Of a stretch of DNA of 22,142 nt, positions 614 through 13,657 are shown in pieces. The stretch spans positions 1 to 22,142 of IMG/VR virus record IMGVR_UViG_3300032213_001177; one strand, written 5' to 3'. How positions within the stretch are numbered: the first letter of the stretch is position 1; every line of letters starts with the position of its first letter. This DNA comes from a virus. The notes beneath the pieces were generated by a model. The model saw only the letters and a program-made list of their open reading frames with translations, did no database searches and was not told the DNA's origin. The position numbers were made by a program, and so were the translations under genes.

Positions 614-754
614 ATGGAACAAAAAAAGAAACGTGGCGCAAAGCCAAAGCCGGAAGGCGAAAAGAAAAAAGTAGTACAATTCTATTTAAAAGAAAAGTAC
701 CATATCAAATTTATTAAGGAGGTATCTCCAATCGTTAAAAAATACTCATTATGA
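614..754 (+). CDS. 46-aa basic protein, possible ribbon-helix-helix regulator
   Basis: ATG at 614 opens 46 codons, ending in TGA at 752-754 that overlaps the next ATG (751) as ATGA. The first 19 residues are mostly Lys, Arg, Gly and Pro. They are followed by a strand-like stretch VVQFYLKEKY and a helix rich in Lys and Ile. That pattern (basic arm, short beta strand, helix) is like small ribbon-helix-helix DNA-binding proteins, but only one helix is clear and no signature residue settles it. It sits right after the divergent promoter pair, where a regulator acting on both promoters would be expected. Its existence is supported by the promoter, the translational coupling and the Lys-rich composition; the function is inference. 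Confidence 0.6.
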   Translation: MEQKKKRGAKPKPEGEKKKVVQFYLKEKYHIKFIKEVSPIVKKYSL

Positions 755-984
755 AATTTATTACAGTTAATACATTAGAAGCACATTTAAAAGATGATCT
801 TGATATAGTATATATTAACATTGATCATATTGTTACAATAACTGACCATTGGATACAAAAAGATGAATTAGACATAATAAATTGTTATGCTAAAATTCTT
901 TTATCTAACGGATCTGAAATTATTTGTGAAGAAAGTATAGAGCAATTAGAAAAAGAATTTAAAGAACTTTTTAAACAATATTAA
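751..984 (+). CDS. 77-aa hypothetical protein of the replication operon
   Basis: No confident family. The start overlaps the previous stop (ATGA), and only one base separates its stop from the primase ATG, so it is part of the replication operon. The protein is acidic and predicted mostly beta in its first two thirds (VYINIDHIVTITD, then YAKILLSNGSEIIC) with a closing helix (SIEQLEKEFKELFKQ). A small beta sheet ending in 'L-S-N-G-...-ES-IEQL' recalls FlbD-like small proteins, but the resemblance is short and could be chance. Codon use is as AT-rich as its neighbours. It could be an accessory replication or host-takeover protein; nothing in the sequence decides. Confidence 0.65.
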   Translation: MKFITVNTLEAHLKDDLDIVYINIDHIVTITDHWIQKDELDIINCYAKILLSNGSEIICEESIEQLEKEFKELFKQY

Positions 985-985
985 T

Positions 986-3466
986 ATGAACATTTACGAT
1001 TATCTCGAACAAGGCGAAATAATTGACAAAGCCTGCTTTGTTGCTGCAAAAGAATTGATTGAGTGCGGCCATCATGTTATTCCTTTAATGAAAGGTGAAA
1101 AGCGGCCAACGATAAACATAAAGCGTATTAACGATGTTGTAAAGAACCCGATCAATTTGCATAATGTATCTTACTTTTTTGATCGTGATTGCGACATCGG
1201 TATTATGCTCCAACGTGGCATGGAGGTGATTGACATTGACGAAAAGAACTGCAAAGGAATAACAAAGAAGATTTTAAACACCATTGAAATGGGGTGGCCG
1301 GAGCTTTACGATAAACTTGTAATATGCAGCACTCCTACAGGTGGCGCGCATATTGAGTATTATGCTGAAAAGGTTGGAGGCGATCCGGTACTTGCAAGGG
1401 TGGAAGGTAGTCCACATCCAGTTACCGTTGTCGAGCGCATTGACGAAACCAATAAGCAATACATAAAAACGGCTCCTTCCGCAGGCTACTATTACATTAA
1501 AGGAAACCCATGCGAACTGCCAAAGCTTGATATTGAGGAACGTGGATGGCTTATGTCGGTTATAAAGTCTTTTGATCAATCACCTGTTTACGAGGTGAAG
1601 AAAAAAGATTACATTCGTGAAGATAGTCCTTGGAAAGTATTTAACGCTCAAAACGATTGGCGATATATACAGGATGAATTAACAGTTAGGAATTGGAAAG
1701 TAGTAATGGAGTTGAATGATCGTGTGGTAGTTCGCCGTCCGAATGCAACATCAAACCATTCAGGAAGTATTTTTAAAGATTCAAACATCCTTTACCTATT
1801 TTCTACAGGAAGCGATCTTGAAGCAGGGAAAGGATATACACCTTTTGGTATTTACGCTCACTTTTATCATGATGGCAATATCCACAATGCACAAAAGCAG
1901 TTAGCGACTCAAGGCATCGGTATAAACATAACCGATGAAGGGCAGTTTTGGAAAAAGGAAAAACACCGATTAAAAATTAAATACACCGAACTAGCAGCAT
2001 GGCTTGAGTCTATTGGATATTATTATTACGATAATCAATTAGTTCAGGTCATTAATAACAAAGTAAGAATATCTGAAACATCTGATCTCATTAAAGCGTT
2101 TTTAAATGAAGTGGAGCCGGATATATTAGACGATATGATTGAGAAAGTGCCTGTGATATTTAAAGAAAGCGGCGGTCTTATGCAGGGCTTAATAGGTACA
2201 TTAAACAGAGAGTTTGTAAGGGATAGTAAAAATGAGACTTGGTTTTTCTTTATTAACTGCGCTGTAAAGGTCACAAATGAGAACTGCGAGCCTGTTTTGT
2301 ATAATGAGATAAAAGGTTTAGTTTGGGAAGAAAACATTATAAACAGGCGCTTTGAGCCGATTAATTACACCGGCTGCGATGCTGAAAGGTTTATAGGTAT
2401 TTTAGGAGGTGATGATATTACCCAACTTGAGCAGATTATAGGTTACAATTTGAGCCGATATAAAGATCCGTTAATAAGTAAGGCAACGGTGATAATGGAG
2501 GATGTATCTGCTGAGTCAGAGGGCGAAAGTCAGGGGCGGTCTGGTAAAGGTGTAATGATTAAATTCATTAAAGAATTTAGAAAGACTAGTTACATAAACG
2601 GAAAGACTATGAACTTTAGCGACTCTTTTCTATGGCAGTCCGTTCAAATGGATACGAATCTAATCTTTATTGATGATGTGGAAAAGTCATTCAGGTTTAC
2701 AAAACTATTTAGTCAGATAACGGAGGGCATTGAAATAAACGCAAAGAACAAAGCAAAGGTTATTATTCCTTATGAGACATCCCCAAAGATAATCATAACA
2801 TCAAACTATGCAGTTGGCGAAATGGATGACAGCACATATGATCGCAAATTTGAATTTCCTGTAGTCAAACATTTTACATCTAATTACAAGCCTGTGGATG
2901 AATTTGGAAGGGCTTTCTTTATTGACTGGGATGCTGTTGAATGGTCAAAATTTGACAACTTTATGATCTCATGCGCTCAAAAGTATTTAAGCCTAAATGA
3001 TCGCGGCAAAATAACCGTAAGGACTTCAAACTCAATAGATAGGAATCTGATAAACGATACTGATAGGGGATTTGTTGAGTGGATGGATGATCAGTTGCAA
3101 AGCAACTTCTTTTTGTTTGCTCCTCAAGTACTTAAAAATGAAAGGTCTGAAAAAAATGGCAGTTTAACGGTAAATGCTGTGAATATGTCTATGTTTAAAA
3201 AGAATACAAATAACCCTGATTATTACATAACTAAGTCAAAACAGGATGTTTTAGAGCTGATTCATAAGGTATGTAACAACAACAAAATAACACAAACAAC
3301 TTTAACCAAGTGGATTAAAAAATGGTCTCAAGTTAGAGTTGTTGAGTTGGATCATGCATACAAAAGAGGCAATGATAGTGGCAGGCTTTACAGGTTTATT
3401 TCATGGCCTGATCAAAATAATTCATTTCCAAATCAATTATCTGAAAGTGAGGAGCCGCCATTTTAA
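986..3466 (+). CDS. D5-like replicative primase-helicase (prim-pol + SF3 helicase)
   Basis: An 826-residue two-domain replication protein. The N-terminal part looks like a bifunctional primase/polymerase: GHHVIPLMKGEKRP at 28-41, the acidic motif VIDIDEK at 81-87 and STPTGGAHIEYY at 115-126. A middle segment (about 215-312) contains the SG-S-...-FSTGSDLEAGKGYTPF pattern often seen in mobile-element primases. The C-terminal part is a superfamily-3 helicase: Walker A GRSGKG (527-532), Walker B NLIFIDDVEK (558-567), and motif C IIITSNY with Asn607 (602-608). It should unwind DNA and lay primers at the phage origin. It is the last gene of the leftward plus-strand operon and is followed by a repeat-rich gene-free stretch that may be that origin. 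Confidence 0.9.
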   Translation: MNIYDYLEQGEIIDKACFVAAKELIECGHHVIPLMKGEKRPTINIKRINDVVKNPINLHNVSYFFDRDCDIGIMLQRGMEVIDIDEKNCKGITKKILNTIEMGWPELYDKLVICSTPTGGAHIEYYAEKVGGDPVLARVEGSPHPVTVVERIDETNKQYIKTAPSAGYYYIKGNPCELPKLDIEERGWLMSVIKSFDQSPVYEVKKKDYIREDSPWKVFNAQNDWRYIQDELTVRNWKVVMELNDRVVVRRPNATSNHSGSIFKDSNILYLFSTGSDLEAGKGYTPFGIYAHFYHDGNIHNAQKQLATQGIGINITDEGQFWKKEKHRLKIKYTELAAWLESIGYYYYDNQLVQVINNKVRISETSDLIKAFLNEVEPDILDDMIEKVPVIFKESGGLMQGLIGTLNREFVRDSKNETWFFFINCAVKVTNENCEPVLYNEIKGLVWEENIINRRFEPINYTGCDAERFIGILGGDDITQLEQIIGYNLSRYKDPLISKATVIMEDVSAESEGESQGRSGKGVMIKFIKEFRKTSYINGKTMNFSDSFLWQSVQMDTNLIFIDDVEKSFRFTKLFSQITEGIEINAKNKAKVIIPYETSPKIIITSNYAVGEMDDSTYDRKFEFPVVKHFTSNYKPVDEFGRAFFIDWDAVEWSKFDNFMISCAQKYLSLNDRGKITVRTSNSIDRNLINDTDRGFVEWMDDQLQSNFFLFAPQVLKNERSEKNGSLTVNAVNMSMFKKNTNNPDYYITKSKQDVLELIHKVCNNNKITQTTLTKWIKKWSQVRVVELDHAYKRGNDSGRLYRFISWPDQNNSFPNQLSESEEPPF

Positions 3467-3473
3467 AACTGGG

Positions 3474-3716
3474 AAGTAGGAAAAAAACAGCTTTGTTCAA
3501 AGTTTACGTTTCCTACTTTCCTTTTTTATTTTTTGGTTTCCTACTTTGTTTTTGGAACATTAACACATTGATAATCAATAGCAATATATCTTATTTCCTA
3601 CTTTACTACTTCTTTTTAGTAATAAAAATAAATAAATAAAATATATATATAATAAGGGTGTATATATATTATATATATAAGTAGGCAAAAAAATATGGGA
3701 AAATGGGAAAAGTAGG
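3474..3716. repeat. TTTCCTACTTT iteron-like repeats
   Basis: Three direct copies of TTTCCTACTTT lie at 3509-3519, 3537-3547 and 3594-3604. Start-to-start distances are 28 and 57 bases, the second being close to twice the first. One inverted copy, AAGTAGGAAA, lies at 3474-3483. Truncated inverted copies of AAGTAGG follow at 3679-3685 and 3710-3716, beyond the AT-rich tract. The copies are identical over the core, which is far more than chance would place in 250 bases even of AT-rich DNA. They may be binding sites for an initiator or regulator. Confidence 0.75.
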
Positions 3717-3730
3717 TATTTTCAATAAAA

Positions 3731-3761
3731 TTTGCTTTTCTCAAACATTTATCTATTTTTA
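3731..3761 (+). promoter_or_regulatory. Possible promoter for the packaging/head operon
   Basis: TTTG at 3731-3734, a 19-base spacer, then TATTTTTA at 3754-3761, a 7 of 8 match to TAnnTTTG. It is the best-spaced candidate upstream of the gene at 3809. AT-rich sequence makes such matches easier by chance, so this is tentative. Confidence 0.35.
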
Positions 3762-3808
3762 TGTATGCGAACGGTTTTTGATGAATTGCCGAAAACGATA
3801 TTTGATTA

Positions 3809-4114
3809 ATGCAAAACATCCTGATCAATAAAGTGGCTGCTATTATTGAAAAGGAAATGTTGACACCTAAATTCAGGGAGTTGACCGTAAAAGATAGGGA
3901 TTACGATAAAGCACGGTATCTTTACATTTGGGTATTGTTTAATGAGTTTAATGTTGAAAGGGTAGTGATTAGGGATACTTTGCCATGTTACAAATACGGT
4001 AAAACGGTTTATCAGGTAATACGGCGAATGTATTTGAGGAGGAAAGACAATGATTTGATTTATGAGGTTAAAAACATAATACGCATATATGCCAAAGGGC
4101 GCGATAAATATTGA
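3809..4114 (+). CDS. 101-aa protein resembling DnaA domain IV (TrpR-like helical DNA-binding fold)
   Basis: All-helical, basic small protein. After an N-terminal helix (INKVAAIIEKEM), the run DYDKARYLYIWVLF at 31-44 resembles the first helix of the DnaA C-terminal domain, where an (A)RY segment is common in Bacteroidota phage homologues. Next come VVIRDTL and then KYGKTVYQVIRRMYLRR, in the place of the DnaA signature DHSTV-x-(Y/H)-A-x-(R/K)-K. The acidic and His residues of that signature are replaced (GKTVYQV), so the match is partial and the call rests on pattern rather than identity. It lies directly downstream of the repeat cluster and overlaps the small terminase gene by 26 bases. It could be a phage initiator-like or regulatory DNA-binding protein; a simple unrelated HTH protein is the alternative. 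Confidence 0.5.
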   Translation: MQNILINKVAAIIEKEMLTPKFRELTVKDRDYDKARYLYIWVLFNEFNVERVVIRDTLPCYKYGKTVYQVIRRMYLRRKDNDLIYEVKNIIRIYAKGRDKY

Positions 4115-4469
4115 TTGGGATCAGGTGGCCTATTGGCTTGAAGCTAGATGCTCAGGAAGCCAAATAGCTGACATTTTAGGCATTCATGAGAATACTTTGT
4201 ACGAAAGATGCAAAACGGATTTGGGATTAGAATTCGTGGCATTTAAGGCCAAAAATAGATCTAAGGGGGAACAGAACTTAAGATTAGCGCAATATGAATC
4301 TGCTGTAAAAGATAAAGACAGAGGGATGCAGATATGGTTAGGTAAACAATGGTTAGGCCAAACAGATAAGAGTCAAAGCACTATAGACATTCCTCAAATG
4401 AAAGTTGTGAAAATAACTACAGATGGCATCACCGAGCAAAGTAATATGGCAGACCCATCAAGCTTATAA
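4089..4469 (+). CDS. terS: Terminase small subunit
   Basis: This 126-residue protein sits immediately before the large terminase. Residues 10-45 form a helix-turn-helix (WDQVAYWLEARCSGSQIADI, then GIHENTLYER) suited to recognising the packaging site. Residues 67-94 hold the run AQYESAVKDKDRGMQIWLGK followed by QWLGQTDK, a common ending of the oligomerising core in Terminase_2-like small subunits. Size, position and the 47-base overlap with the TerL gene all fit. In the complex, the small subunit binds phage DNA and hands it to TerL for cutting and ATP-driven loading through the portal. Its recognition site (pac or cos) cannot be read from the window. Confidence 0.8.
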   Translation: MPKGAINIDWDQVAYWLEARCSGSQIADILGIHENTLYERCKTDLGLEFVAFKAKNRSKGEQNLRLAQYESAVKDKDRGMQIWLGKQWLGQTDKSQSTIDIPQMKVVKITTDGITEQSNMADPSSL

Positions 4470-10059: not shown

Positions 10060-10092
10060 TTGGTTTGTGTTTAGTGTTGGCTTACAATTACG

Positions 10093-10117
10093 GCCTCCCA
10101 GTTTTGGGAGGCTTTTT
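10093..10117 (+). terminator. Intrinsic terminator after the capsid gene
   Basis: An 8-base perfect stem GCCTCCCA / TGGGAGGC (10093-10100 and 10105-10112) with a four-base loop GTTT is followed directly by five T residues (10113-10117). This is a classic Rho-independent terminator on the plus strand. It ends the capsid transcript 34 bases after its stop codon and isolates it from the glycosyltransferase genes. Confidence 0.88.
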
Positions 10118-10118
10118 G

Positions 10119-10126
10119 TATATTTG
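10119..10126 (+). promoter_or_regulatory. Promoter box of the glycosyltransferase cassette
   Basis: TATATTTG, an exact TAnnTTTG box, starts one base after the T-run of the preceding terminator and ends four bases before the ATG at 10131. Transcription would start on or next to the start codon, giving a leaderless or near-leaderless mRNA. Its -33 region falls in the terminator stem and shows no good TTTG match. Confidence 0.55.
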
Positions 10127-10130
10127 TGGT

Positions 10131-10691
10131 ATGAGAGCCGTTTGTCTTAATTTAGCCGCGCGTAATGATAGATGGAAATTAGCCGAAAAGGAATTTAAGC
10201 AACAGGGTATTGATGTGGAACGATTTTATGCAATTGAGCATAATGATCGTTTTTTATCATTTAATTTATCTCAGCAAGCAATACTTAAAACTATTACAGA
10301 AAACACGGCGGTTTTTGAGGATGATGTTGTATTTATAAATAATATGTACAAGCACATCATCCAAACGGCTCCTGAGGGTTGGGATATGCTTTATTTAAGT
10401 GGTCATGTGCTTATGCCATTAAAACACGTTGAAGATCATTGGTGGAGGTGTAAACATACGCATACAACTCATTCCGTTATTTATACACCACAGGCGGCAA
10501 AGTATATACTTGAGCGGTTTGACCCAATGAAAAGCGGCATTTATGATGATTTCCTTTTACGTGAAATACAGCCTAATTTAAAAGCTTATATTTGTAAGCC
10601 ATTTGTTACAACGCAGCGGCCTGGATATTCTGATTTATGGCAGACTGAAACGGATTACGGAATATTACACACACAAAGCAAATTAATATGA
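10131..10691 (+). CDS. Glycosyltransferase family 25-like
   Basis: 186 residues from the ATG at 10131. The frame is open 66 bases further upstream, but that part encodes the terminator hairpin and promoter. GT25 landmarks: the N-terminal strand VCLNLAARNDRW (4-15), where this family has 'xNLxxRxDR'; an acidic EDD in VFEDDVVF (61-68) that would bind the metal and nucleotide sugar; THSVIYTPQAAKYIL (113-127); and YDDFL (138-142). Members transfer galactose, glucose or similar sugars onto lipopolysaccharide cores or onto protein hydroxylysine. It is shorter than typical bacterial GT25 enzymes (about 250) but the core is complete. No membrane segment is visible. First gene of a tightly overlapping five-gene cassette; its stop overlaps the next ATG as ATGA. 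Confidence 0.8.
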   Translation: MRAVCLNLAARNDRWKLAEKEFKQQGIDVERFYAIEHNDRFLSFNLSQQAILKTITENTAVFEDDVVFINNMYKHIIQTAPEGWDMLYLSGHVLMPLKHVEDHWWRCKHTHTTHSVIYTPQAAKYILERFDPMKSGIYDDFLLREIQPNLKAYICKPFVTTQRPGYSDLWQTETDYGILHTQSKLI

Positions 10692-11422
10692 GAATAGTTC
10701 ACATTACTTTTGCTGATATGAATATGTCGCAAAGTGCAATACTTTGCAGAGATAGTGCTTTAAAACACGGTGCGCATCATTCTATTATGTTTAACAAAAG
10801 ATGTTATGATCCTTTGTTTTATAGTTTGAATAAAGATGTTTTGGATCAGGATAGAGGAGCAGGGTATTGGTTATGGAAGCCTTACATTATTTACAATAAT
10901 TTATGCAGGCTAAATGAAGGTGATGTATTGATTTATACAGACGCGGGTGTTGAAGTGGTCAATGATTTAAATATTATCATTGATAAAATGGATAGCGATG
11001 TGTTTTTATTTGGAAATAATTACAAGCATTTGGATTGGTGTAAAATGAGTGTAATGAACGGAATTTTTCCGAGGTGGGATACAAAATTTAACAGAGATAA
11101 TAGGCAAATACAGGCTTCTGCAATATTTATAAAAAACACCAAAGCGGCTAGGTTGTTTATTGGTCAATGGCTTAAGTATTGCCAATTAGATGGTTTTATT
11201 GATGATTCATTAAGTACTGATTACAATTACCCTACATTTCAGGAACATAGGCATGATCAAGCAATACTAACTTGTTTGGCTTATAAACACGGAATAAAAT
11301 TACATTGGTGGCCTGCGCATTATAACGAAGGCCAGTTTATTTACGATAAAGATCAGCAATTTCAGGATGATAATTATCCTGTAATATTTCATCATCACCG
11401 CAAAAGAAATAACGAATGGTAA
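10688..11422 (+). CDS. Putative GT-A-type glycosyltransferase
   Basis: 244 residues. The N-terminal half has the pattern RGAGYWLWKP (56-65) followed by EGDVLIYTDAG (77-87), where the acidic TDAG could serve as the DxD-like nucleotide-sugar site of a GT-A fold. Further blocks are IQASAIFIKN (141-150), HRHDQAIL (187-194) and a C-terminal His cluster HHHR (235-238). Proteins with the GYW-WKP / D-A-G combination occur in capsule and lipopolysaccharide loci, but the sugar and acceptor are unknown. It has no signal peptide or membrane helix, so it should act in the cytoplasm. Its stop overlaps the methyltransferase start by seven bases. The glycosyltransferase call rests on the motif pair and context. 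Confidence 0.65.
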   Translation: MRIVHITFADMNMSQSAILCRDSALKHGAHHSIMFNKRCYDPLFYSLNKDVLDQDRGAGYWLWKPYIIYNNLCRLNEGDVLIYTDAGVEVVNDLNIIIDKMDSDVFLFGNNYKHLDWCKMSVMNGIFPRWDTKFNRDNRQIQASAIFIKNTKAARLFIGQWLKYCQLDGFIDDSLSTDYNYPTFQEHRHDQAILTCLAYKHGIKLHWWPAHYNEGQFIYDKDQQFQDDNYPVIFHHHRKRNNEW

Positions 11423-11982
11423 AAAGAATAACACAAGATAGGTGGCATGAGGCGCAAATAGCAGAAAGAATCTGTCATAAATTTGACAGAAAACATGGCG
11501 AAAATCATTATAAAAATACTTATCTAAATTATTTTCAATATTTAGATATTAAGGATTCAGATGCTTTTATTATTGAAATAGGATGTGCAGATTTTCCTGC
11601 TTTACAATGGGTTAAATTTGGGAAAGGTATTTTTATTGAACCGATGCCATCGGTAATATTAAAAGATATTGCAAAAGAATTAGGCTGTGATATTATTGCG
11701 AAACCAGTTGAGGAAATAGATATACCAAAATGTGATGAAATATGGCTTTTAAATGTGATGCAGCATGTTATAGACCCGGATTTGTTTATTGCTAAGTGTA
11801 AAGAATCGGCTAAGGTAATCAGGTTCTTTGAGCCAATTGATTGGCCAATAGAAATTTATCATCCTCACACTTTTACATTTGATTGGTATAAAAGTCATTT
11901 TCCTGATGCTAAATTATATAAAGGCGACAAACCTAATTTTCACGAAGCTAAATGTGCATACGGTATATGGTCACAAGCTTAA
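11416..11982 (+). CDS. SAM-dependent methyltransferase (class I)
   Basis: 188 residues with a Rossmann-type methyltransferase core: motif I IIEIGCADFPAL (52-63), where the acidic-Gly-Cys segment holds SAM; the next strand ending FIEPMPS (73-79) with an acidic residue for the ribose; and the post-motif EIWLLNVMQHVIDP (108-121) of the form 'D-x-(I/V)-x-x-x-x-V-x-x-H'. This resembles small-molecule or sugar O-methyltransferases such as FkbM and Methyltransf_11/23 members more than DNA methyltransferases: there is no DPPY/NPPY motif. Placed between glycosyltransferase genes, it most likely methylates a sugar, perhaps capping the glycan. The DNA is AT-rich even for this window. Confidence 0.75.
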   Translation: MVKRITQDRWHEAQIAERICHKFDRKHGENHYKNTYLNYFQYLDIKDSDAFIIEIGCADFPALQWVKFGKGIFIEPMPSVILKDIAKELGCDIIAKPVEEIDIPKCDEIWLLNVMQHVIDPDLFIAKCKESAKVIRFFEPIDWPIEIYHPHTFTFDWYKSHFPDAKLYKGDKPNFHEAKCAYGIWSQA

Positions 11983-12722
11983 GCATAGGCACTGGAGGAC
12001 TTGGTAGGTTTGGTAACCAAATGTGGACTATTGCCGGATGCATTGGTATTGCAAGGGCAAACGGAATGGATTTTGCTTTTCCTAAGTGGGTGAATCATGA
12101 TAATGTGCTTTTTGGAGCGAATAGAGACGATTTAAGCCGCTATTTTGTTAATCAACTGCCTTTGTTACCTGATGGCAGGCATTGGCAGGAATACGGCTAT
12201 TTTTGGGGATATAAGGATGTAAAATTAAATAGAGGTGACTGGTCAATTAATGCGCATCTGCAAAGCCATACATTTTTTGAGCATTGCATTGATGAGGTGA
12301 GGCATTACTTTACTTTAAAAAATGAAGGCGAACAAAACAATTTCTGCGCTGTTCATGTGAGGGCGGGGGATTACATTGATGATCCAAATGCTTATCATCC
12401 AATTTGCTCAAATGAGTATTATCAAAAAGCGGTTAGTTTAATGCCATCAGGAACAAAGTATATTATTTTTAGTGATGATTTGGATTTTGCTAAAAAAAGG
12501 ACTGGCATCGATGGCATCTATTTATCTGAGCATTACATTGATGATTTTAGATTAATGAAGCGGTGCAAACATTTTATTATTGCAAACAGTAGCTTTTCTG
12601 CAATGGCGGCTTTATTGGCAGATCATCCCGAAAAGATAGTTGTTGCCCCTAAGCGTTGGTTTGGACCACATGTTGACATATCGGCAAAAGATATTTATCA
12701 TCCAAAATGGTTAGTAATATGA
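11967..12722 (+). CDS. Glycosyltransferase family 11-like (alpha-1,2-fucosyltransferase type)
   Basis: 251 residues from the ATG at 11967; an in-frame ATG at 11952 would add five residues. Family GT11 motifs are clear: GGLGRFGNQMW (10-20), the GDP-sugar-binding VHVRAGDYI (129-137) with H-x-R-x-G-D-Y, FSDD (168-171), and ANSSFSAMAALL (206-217) in place of the usual 'NSSFSWWAA'. Known members add L-fucose (or galactose) from GDP- or related donors in alpha-1,2 linkage to O-antigen or host-like glycans. No GDP-fucose synthesis genes are here, so the donor would come from the host. No membrane segment. It overlaps the methyltransferase by 16 bases and the next gene by four (ATGA). Confidence 0.85.
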   Translation: MVTSLSIGTGGLGRFGNQMWTIAGCIGIARANGMDFAFPKWVNHDNVLFGANRDDLSRYFVNQLPLLPDGRHWQEYGYFWGYKDVKLNRGDWSINAHLQSHTFFEHCIDEVRHYFTLKNEGEQNNFCAVHVRAGDYIDDPNAYHPICSNEYYQKAVSLMPSGTKYIIFSDDLDFAKKRTGIDGIYLSEHYIDDFRLMKRCKHFIIANSSFSAMAALLADHPEKIVVAPKRWFGPHVDISAKDIYHPKWLVI

Positions 12723-13657
12723 ACATTCTTTGGTCAATACACCTTTATTTCCCAAGACATGGCAGCGGAGCCGAGGCAATGGCTCGAAACATAAACAGGT
12801 ATTTAAAAAGTCAGAGTCATGACATTAAAATACTATTGCATCAGGCTAATCAGTACAAAATAACTGAGATGTATGAATATGAAGGTGTGGATGTATTCCC
12901 GCCTGATGAATACATTATAGATAAACTTTTTACTTGGGCTGATGTGGTAATTTCACATTTAGATTACAACAAATGGACTACTCACACATGTGAAAAATAT
13001 AAAAAGCCAATAATTCATATTGTTCACAACGATACACCGTATCCATCGGTAAAGGATTCACCCATACCTGTAAAAGTGGTTTACAATTCCGACTGGTGCA
13101 AAAAGGCATTAAATTATAATTGGCCTAGTATTGTGTTTCCTCCTCCTATTGATGAATGGGTAAAGACGGATGATAAGGAAAGGAAATATATTACCTTAAT
13201 AAATTTGAATCAAAACAAAGGAAGCCGTTATTTTTACAGCCTTGCTAAAAAGCTGCCTCAATATCAATTTTTAGGTGTAAAAGGCAGTTATGATGGTCAA
13301 CATATTGAAAATCTGCCAAATGTAAAAATAATACCAAATACACCTGATATTCGGGAGGTTTACAAAAAGACAAAAATATTGTTAGTGCCTTCGCATTATG
13401 AAAGTTGGGGGATGGTTGCAGGCGAAGGATTGATAAATGGCATTCCTGTAATTTACAATCCAACACCTGGACTGCTTGAGAATGTTGCAGATGGTGGGAT
13501 ATGCTTAAATAGAAAAGATACAGAAAAATGGGTTGAAGAGATTAATAAATTAATGACTGATTCGACATATTACAAAAAATGGTCTAAAAAGGGATTAAAA
13601 AGAGCCGAACAGCATTTGCCCAAGTGGAAAGAATTGGAAGAGTTTATCTGTAAATAA
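12719..13657 (+). CDS. Glycosyltransferase family 4
   Basis: 312 residues from the ATG at 12719, which overlaps the previous stop as ATGA; an ATG at 12707 is in frame but adds only four residues. A GT-B retaining glycosyltransferase: an N-terminal acceptor-side domain with HGSGAEAMARNINRYL (14-29), then a donor-side domain with LINLNQNKGSRYFYSLAKKL and the hallmark E-x7-E motif in SHYESWGMVAGEGLINGIPV (Glu228 and Glu236), followed by TPGLLENV and GGICL. Family members use GDP-mannose, UDP-sugars and others. It is short for GT4 (usual 350-400), but both halves are present. It ends the cassette; a hairpin follows directly after the stop. Confidence 0.88.
   Translation: MNILWSIHLYFPRHGSGAEAMARNINRYLKSQSHDIKILLHQANQYKITEMYEYEGVDVFPPDEYIIDKLFTWADVVISHLDYNKWTTHTCEKYKKPIIHIVHNDTPYPSVKDSPIPVKVVYNSDWCKKALNYNWPSIVFPPPIDEWVKTDDKERKYITLINLNQNKGSRYFYSLAKKLPQYQFLGVKGSYDGQHIENLPNVKIIPNTPDIREVYKKTKILLVPSHYESWGMVAGEGLINGIPVIYNPTPGLLENVADGGICLNRKDTEKWVEEINKLMTDSTYYKKWSKKGLKRAEQHLPKWKELEEFICK

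Follow-up and report, generated by a model that had tools for sequence, protein, structure and literature searches.

Initiator helicases with iterons downstream of their genes are already known as a kind. The C-terminal domain of SaPI Rep recognises an iteron origin located directly downstream of its gene (PMC7581432). The alpha protein of P4 combines three functions in one polypeptide, since it binds repeats by a winged helix, unwinds the DNA, and primes synthesis (PMC4234260). pRN1 ORF904 and phage BIP-1 provide a third arrangement, in which a protein composed of Prim-Pol, SF3, and C-terminal winged-helix domains is encoded directly 5′ of an origin described as a large stem-loop devoid of iterons (PMC4234260). 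In the PLE satellites of Vibrio cholerae, the initiator RepA and its cognate iterons are swapped as a pair, and an origin-directed nuclease possibly provides the selection (PMC8263062).

The window analyzed here is the entire 22,142-nucleotide stretch of a virus record (IMG/VR IMGVR_UViG_3300032213_001177). We conclude that, very probably, positions 3464 to 3726 are a replication origin and the initiator is the 826-residue primase-helicase encoded directly upstream (positions 986 to 3466, plus strand). The assignment of the repeats and A/T tract to an origin is well supported. A preliminary description had proposed a candidate origin made of repeats, an A/T-rich tract, and the adjacent D5-like primase-helicase, a proposal supported by the conservation of this layout in relatives. 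The span given at that time, 3467 to 4114, also took in the gene for a 101-residue protein, which lies outside the element itself (about 3464 to 3726).

Three exact copies of TTTCCTACTT (3509-3518, 3537-3546, and 3594-3603), an exact inverse copy, AAGTAGGAAA (3474-3483), and two extra AAGTAGG cores (3679-3685 and 3710-3716) were found as previously reported, in what was fairly described as the only long gene-free stretch. All six AAGTAGG copies of the 22-kb window, counted over its whole length, lie within 243 bases (3474-3716). The total is unremarkable (shuffle mean of 2.2, with six copies reached in 3 of 100 shuffles); the clustering is remarkable, a 7-mer count of six being reached in none of 200 dinucleotide shuffles of a 390-base region. 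The repeat sites are mostly arranged in tandem, as pairs with an 8-base step, (TTCCnACT)2 or its inverse, a regularity that the preliminary description had missed, together with the right-hand pair GGGAAAATGGGAAA near 3697-3710, the ATTGATAATCAAT element, and an A/T hairpin. Repeat group R1, TGGGAAGTAGGAAA (3470-3483, plus strand), is immediately 3′ of the helicase stop codon, at a position conserved in the alignment of regions carrying the same helicase allele (allele A, see below). Sequence and alignment define R2 as the inverted tandem TTTCCTACTTTCCTTTT (3509-3525, minus strand; the pair is also written TTTCCTACTTTCC at 3509). A single inverted copy of TTTCCTACTT follows (3537-3546, minus strand), which reads TTCCGACTT in loci L004 to L006 and is lost in L009 to L013, and then R4, the inverted tandem TTTCCTACTTTACTACTT (3594-3611, minus strand), which is the best conserved pair among relatives, where it reads TTCCTACTTTCCTACTT. 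The last group, R5 (3679-3716, plus strand), also defined by sequence and alignment, comprises AAGTAGG at 3679, GGGAAAATGGGAAA near 3697, and AAGTAGG at 3710. The ATTGATAATCAAT element (3567-3579), variants of which persist with each of the helicase alleles A, B, and C and in a Chitinophagaceae relative (L225), is a possible site for a bending protein. In 11 aligned allele-A regions, the order and spacing were kept: a forward pair at the helicase end, an inverted pair, ATTGATAATCAAT, an inverted pair, the A/T tract, and a forward pair.

Lack of conservation of the repeats in relatives retaining the replication genes had been named in the preliminary description as an observation that would speak against an origin. 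Searching TTCCnACTTTCCnACTT with at most one mismatch in 13 complete records from relatives, up to 37 kb long, detected it in 8 of them, with every match inside the region after the helicase; the 5 records without it include carriers of other helicase alleles. Since the allele-A layout is kept and TTCCnACTTTCCnACTT is confined to the region after the helicase, the proposal withstood this comparison. GC skew, which had also been suggested as a check, was uninformative on the origin because it follows gene direction: its extrema in relatives are 1.7 to 3.4 kb from the repeats, at the gene-direction switch, and thus do not mark the origin. Replication of P4 requires a second repeat region, crr. 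The present locus differs in this respect, as no second repeat cluster was found by the AAGTAGG count in the window or by the TTCCnACTTTCCnACTT search of the related records.

The A/T tract adjoins the repeats, as had been claimed, at about 3613-3682 and has 6 G/C in 70 bases, within a gap (3467-3808) with an overall G+C content of 24%. It is the proposed unwinding region. A perfect 13-bp A/T hairpin is present in the tract (arms at 3642-3654 and 3667-3679, 12-nt loop), and the DNA fold z score against shuffles was −3.6 for the window region. Scores of −3.6, −4.3, and −4.7 were obtained for three allele-A regions, with weaker values for two others (−2.1 and −1.9), and the hairpin signal was absent or weak in allele B and C regions. 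A conserved hairpin was therefore dropped as a general origin signal. This organization differs from the pRN1 type in that the window has iterons and the smaller 13-bp hairpin instead of a stem-loop of about 100 nt without iterons.

The primase-helicase comprises an N-terminal Prim-Pol-type primase, a DUF5906/D5-type SF3 helicase core, and a predicted C-terminal winged helix. The Pfam Prim-Pol match was weak for the window protein and clear for its relatives (2.6e-14 for L073 and 4.2e-15 for L111); DUF5906 was matched at 5.3e-6 and also occurs in relatives, and the profile of the helicase family matched the Prim-Pol structure of pRN1 ORF904 (E value of 1.5e-5). An AlphaFold2 model was obtained for residues 331 to 826 (mean pLDDT of 80). 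The best fold match of this model (1-469) was SaPI5 Rep (7om0/7ola; Z of 19.4 to 19.6, with 363 to 368 residues aligned, the upper values being those of 7om0), followed by the ASFV PrimPol, poxvirus D5/E5, and phage NrS-1 proteins. The window protein shares with pRN1 ORF904 and BIP-1 the combination of an archaeo-eukaryotic Prim-Pol domain, an SF3 helicase, and a C-terminal winged helix, and differs from P4 alpha, which has a TOPRIM-type primase, whereas the N terminus of the window protein matches Prim-Pol/ORF904 and not TOPRIM. The likeness to the SaPI Rep/ori systems (SaPI5 Rep; Cch2 of SCCmec) extends to the locus: in addition to the D5-type SF3 fold and a predicted C-terminal DNA-binding domain, iterons and an A/T tract lie directly downstream of the initiator gene, as in SaPI5, and the specific pairing of initiator and origin would find its counterpart here in their co-inheritance (see below). 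Unlike SaPI Rep, to which its sequence is about 11% identical, the window system occurs in phages of Bacteroidota-type hosts rather than in a staphylococcal island, and its repeats form tandem pairs of 8-base step that are found in either orientation and that pass from phage to phage within allele cassettes.

The winged helix predicted by the AlphaFold2 fragment model (residues about 748 to 807; positions 3227-3406, plus strand) is the proposed repeat-binding part of the protein, with helices at 422-432 and 440-453 and strands at 457-463 and 470-476 (fragment numbering, +330). The C-terminal part has diverged more rapidly than the core of the helicase in most of the pairs compared (36% versus 55% identity for L018; 59% versus 93% for L073 with L110), which would be expected of a specificity domain but is not proof of one. 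The last 16 residues (positions 3416-3463, plus strand) form a disordered tail (pLDDT of about 35) ending in EEPPF. The C-terminal Phe is kept in at least 90% of 25 homologues, and nearly all helicase tails of the viral set end in F, often in the form D/E..PF (EEPPF, DDVPF, KIPF, DIPF), resembling the C-terminal tip of bacterial SSB. Such a tail may recruit host SSB-binding proteins. This is a lead only, because 59 of 401 other proteins at these loci (15%) also end in F, 19 of them in PF, and because only 21 of 64 genomic helicase homologues do. One helicase gene of another allele (allele B; L110, positions 2090-2136) has three in-frame stop codons among the final 16, downstream of the winged-helix region, reflecting either loss of the tail or sequence errors.

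Relatives of the window carry different helicase alleles upstream of either the 101-residue protein gene or a CxxC gene, and alleles A, B, and C were each found in both contexts. The repeat type is GTnGGAA for allele A, ATCRAGTC-like for allele B, and AAGTGTG for allele C. It followed the helicase allele, whatever the gene downstream, in 33 of 34 loci, a count that corresponds to perhaps five to eight independent exchanges, since several loci are near-copies, and that relies on motifs defined after the sequences were inspected; the other locus, L110, has a coherent variant of its own. GTnGGAA was the only type in 14 A and 7 A′ loci, and ATCRAGTC was found in 6 of 7 B loci, ATCGTGTC in 2 B′ loci, and AAGTGTG in 4 C loci. 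Allele-A helicases, 50 to 99% identical to that of the window, kept GTnGGAA with the 101-residue protein gene (L002, L005 to L008, L017, L023) and with the CxxC gene (L004, L009 to L013, L015, L016, L019). Allele B is 26 to 28% identical to allele A and is associated with GACTCGAT/ATCAAGTC repeats, next to the 101-residue protein gene in L073/L102 and L110 and next to the CxxC gene in L103 to L109. The L110 helicase, 86% identical to that of L073, has the variant repeats GACGCGAT/ATCGCGTAC, and the L111 and L112 helicases (58% identical) have GACACGAT/ATCGTGTC. Allele C is combined with AAGTGTG both before the 101-residue protein gene (L079, L080, L117) and before the CxxC gene (L114 to L116).

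The exchange is best delimited by comparing the window with L102, which carries allele B. Identity is 88% over positions 1-697, no match is found over 698-3726, and homology returns at 3727, about ten bases past the last repeat, with 96% identity over 3727-4079. These sharp borders indicate that the exchanged block consists of a small open reading frame (ORF), the helicase gene, and the repeats, and excludes the 101-residue protein and the terminase. The layout, its conservation, and the co-inheritance of repeats and helicase alleles are read directly from the sequences, and on this basis the putative initiator gene and its matching repeats form one exchangeable cassette.

These data bear on the role of the 101-residue protein (3809-4114, plus strand), which the preliminary description had regarded as a DnaA-like factor binding the repeats and bringing the helicase to the origin. 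Its likeness to DnaA domain IV was borne out by an AlphaFold2 model (mean pLDDT of 86; VIA-align Z of 13.1 for 3pvp and 12.5 for 1j1v, with non-DnaA matches beginning at 4.9). This likeness comes from the fold alone, as the family gave no match by Pfam or by sequence search against solved structures, and the domain-IV fold fills nearly all of the 101 residues, leaving out the AAA+ domain of DnaA. Despite this fold and its position next to the repeats, the protein is most unlikely to be their reader, since the repeats go with the helicase in relatives. The same repeats occur without it (L004, L009 to L013, L015, L016, L018, L019, L021), and it is kept at 93 to 97% identity next to different repeats where the helicase differs (L073/L102; 97% in L102). 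In L081 to L094, it is encoded without a helicase upstream in the sequence portion examined and without such a repeat array before its gene. The DnaA-box consensus TTATNCACA is also absent from the window.

The L102 exchange equally argues against a cos/pac packaging site recognised by the small subunit of the terminase, whose gene is at 4089-4469. Packaging sites are commonly found next to terminase genes, as here, and the predicted small subunit has a helix-turn-helix, but TerL is kept at 96% in L102 with all repeats exchanged, and allele-A repeats also precede another module, from which this TerS/TerL is absent (L009 to L013), which leaves a packaging site very improbable. An operator or promoter of the late operon, under an allele-specific regulator that could be the helicase or the swapped small upstream ORF, is slightly less improbable. 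The region is upstream of late genes, and the small ORF preceding the helicase falls inside the swapped block. However, this ORF varies within allele A (62 to 96% identity, or not recognised) while the repeats are constant, and the distribution of the repeats on both sides of the A/T tract over 250 bases is more origin-like than operator-like. A double role of the region, as an origin and in late-gene control, is possible.

A 14-codon ORF, MRTVFDELPKTIFD (3765-3809, plus strand), conserved in eight sequence versions, is outside the swapped cassette and belongs to the downstream module. Its pattern, M..VFDExPKTIF[G/D], is found just before the 101-residue protein gene in all three helicase contexts, and the ORF also precedes the CxxC gene in L004, L103, and L104. 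The 80-bp block at 3727-3806 is common to phages that differ on both sides (L103, L104) and is likely a recombination joint between the replication cassette and the packaging module. Elsewhere in the window, five genes (10065-13657) separate the major capsid gene from the head-tail connector gene, and at least three of them encode glycosyltransferases (families 25, 11, and group 1), perhaps for modification of capsid or host glycans.

Preferring the origin with the primase-helicase as its initiator, we propose the following mechanism by analogy with SaPI Rep and P4 alpha, a single protein acting in repeat recognition, unwinding, and priming, as in P4. Replication would start at 3464-3726, where the C-terminal winged helix would bind the GTnGGAA/TTCCnAC repeats that flank the A/T tract in both orientations. 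A pair of SF3 rings would then assemble face to face, perhaps aided by bending at ATTGATAATCAAT, and melt the tract, the Prim-Pol domain would lay the first primers, and the forks would be handed to host or other phage proteins.

Related primase-helicase genes were also found in cellular genomes, mostly of Bacteroidota and Ignavibacteria. At 17 of 62 loci, a 600-base segment covering the helicase stop codon and the sequence after it contained an 8-mer at least four times, whereas this was so for 27 of 771 control windows (P = 1e-9). The figure of 17 is approximate, because one or more of these loci (L284) seem to have a dispersed G+C-rich repeat instead of iterons. The positive loci each have their own repeat sequence, in up to 11 copies; this 8-mer test showed no iteron cluster in about 70% of the distant genomic relatives. 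In the closest cellular relative, L225, a Chitinophagaceae metagenome-assembled genome (52% identity), GTGGGAA repeats are found together with TTGATAATCAAT and an A/T tract, pointing to a possible Chitinophagaceae-like host for the phage. Strong unrelated arrays follow Bacteroidota primase-helicase genes in L270 (6435-6900, 11 copies of AGTGCATA), L265 (6270-6700, 8 copies of TATCTACA), and L290 (6078-6600, 7 copies of GGTTACAA), and are candidate origins. More distant helicases (L025 to L070; 32 to 39% identity) are in other gene contexts; in those read, neither a gene-free stretch nor repeats immediately follow the helicase gene, and no origin was found. Known phage records gave no useful match to the window, apart from one 34-base chance match. 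Six contigs recovered by the repeat pattern alone (L096 to L101) are taken as unrelated or chance matches, since, of the two that were checked, L098 codes for a TOPRIM protein and L097 for a tape-measure protein instead of Prim-Pol helicases.

The phage group, the combination of Prim-Pol and iterons, and the allele exchange of initiator and origin as a unit are new. Joint exchange of an initiator and its cognate iterons is shared with the PLE satellites, whose initiator is, unlike the window protein, an unrelated RepA_N protein without helicase or primase. It is plausible, if still tentative, that the initiator-origin pairs of Bacteroidota phages fall into many "incompatibility types" that exclude one another, in which a Prim-Pol-SF3 gene and its iterons are swapped as a cassette between phages that are otherwise nearly identical, perhaps as an escape from origin-directed defence or from competition in co-infection, with iteron specificity residing in the fast-evolving winged helix. 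The analysis places origins, each paired with its initiator, from sequence alone in a widespread group of uncultivated phages. The natural swaps are matched sets, the same phage with a different initiator and different repeats, for the code linking winged helix and repeat. In addition, the swaps link the iteron origins of SaPI and P4 to pRN1-type Prim-Pol proteins, for which stem-loop origins were proposed (PMC4234260), and lead one to ask which selection favours the exchange of origins among phages.
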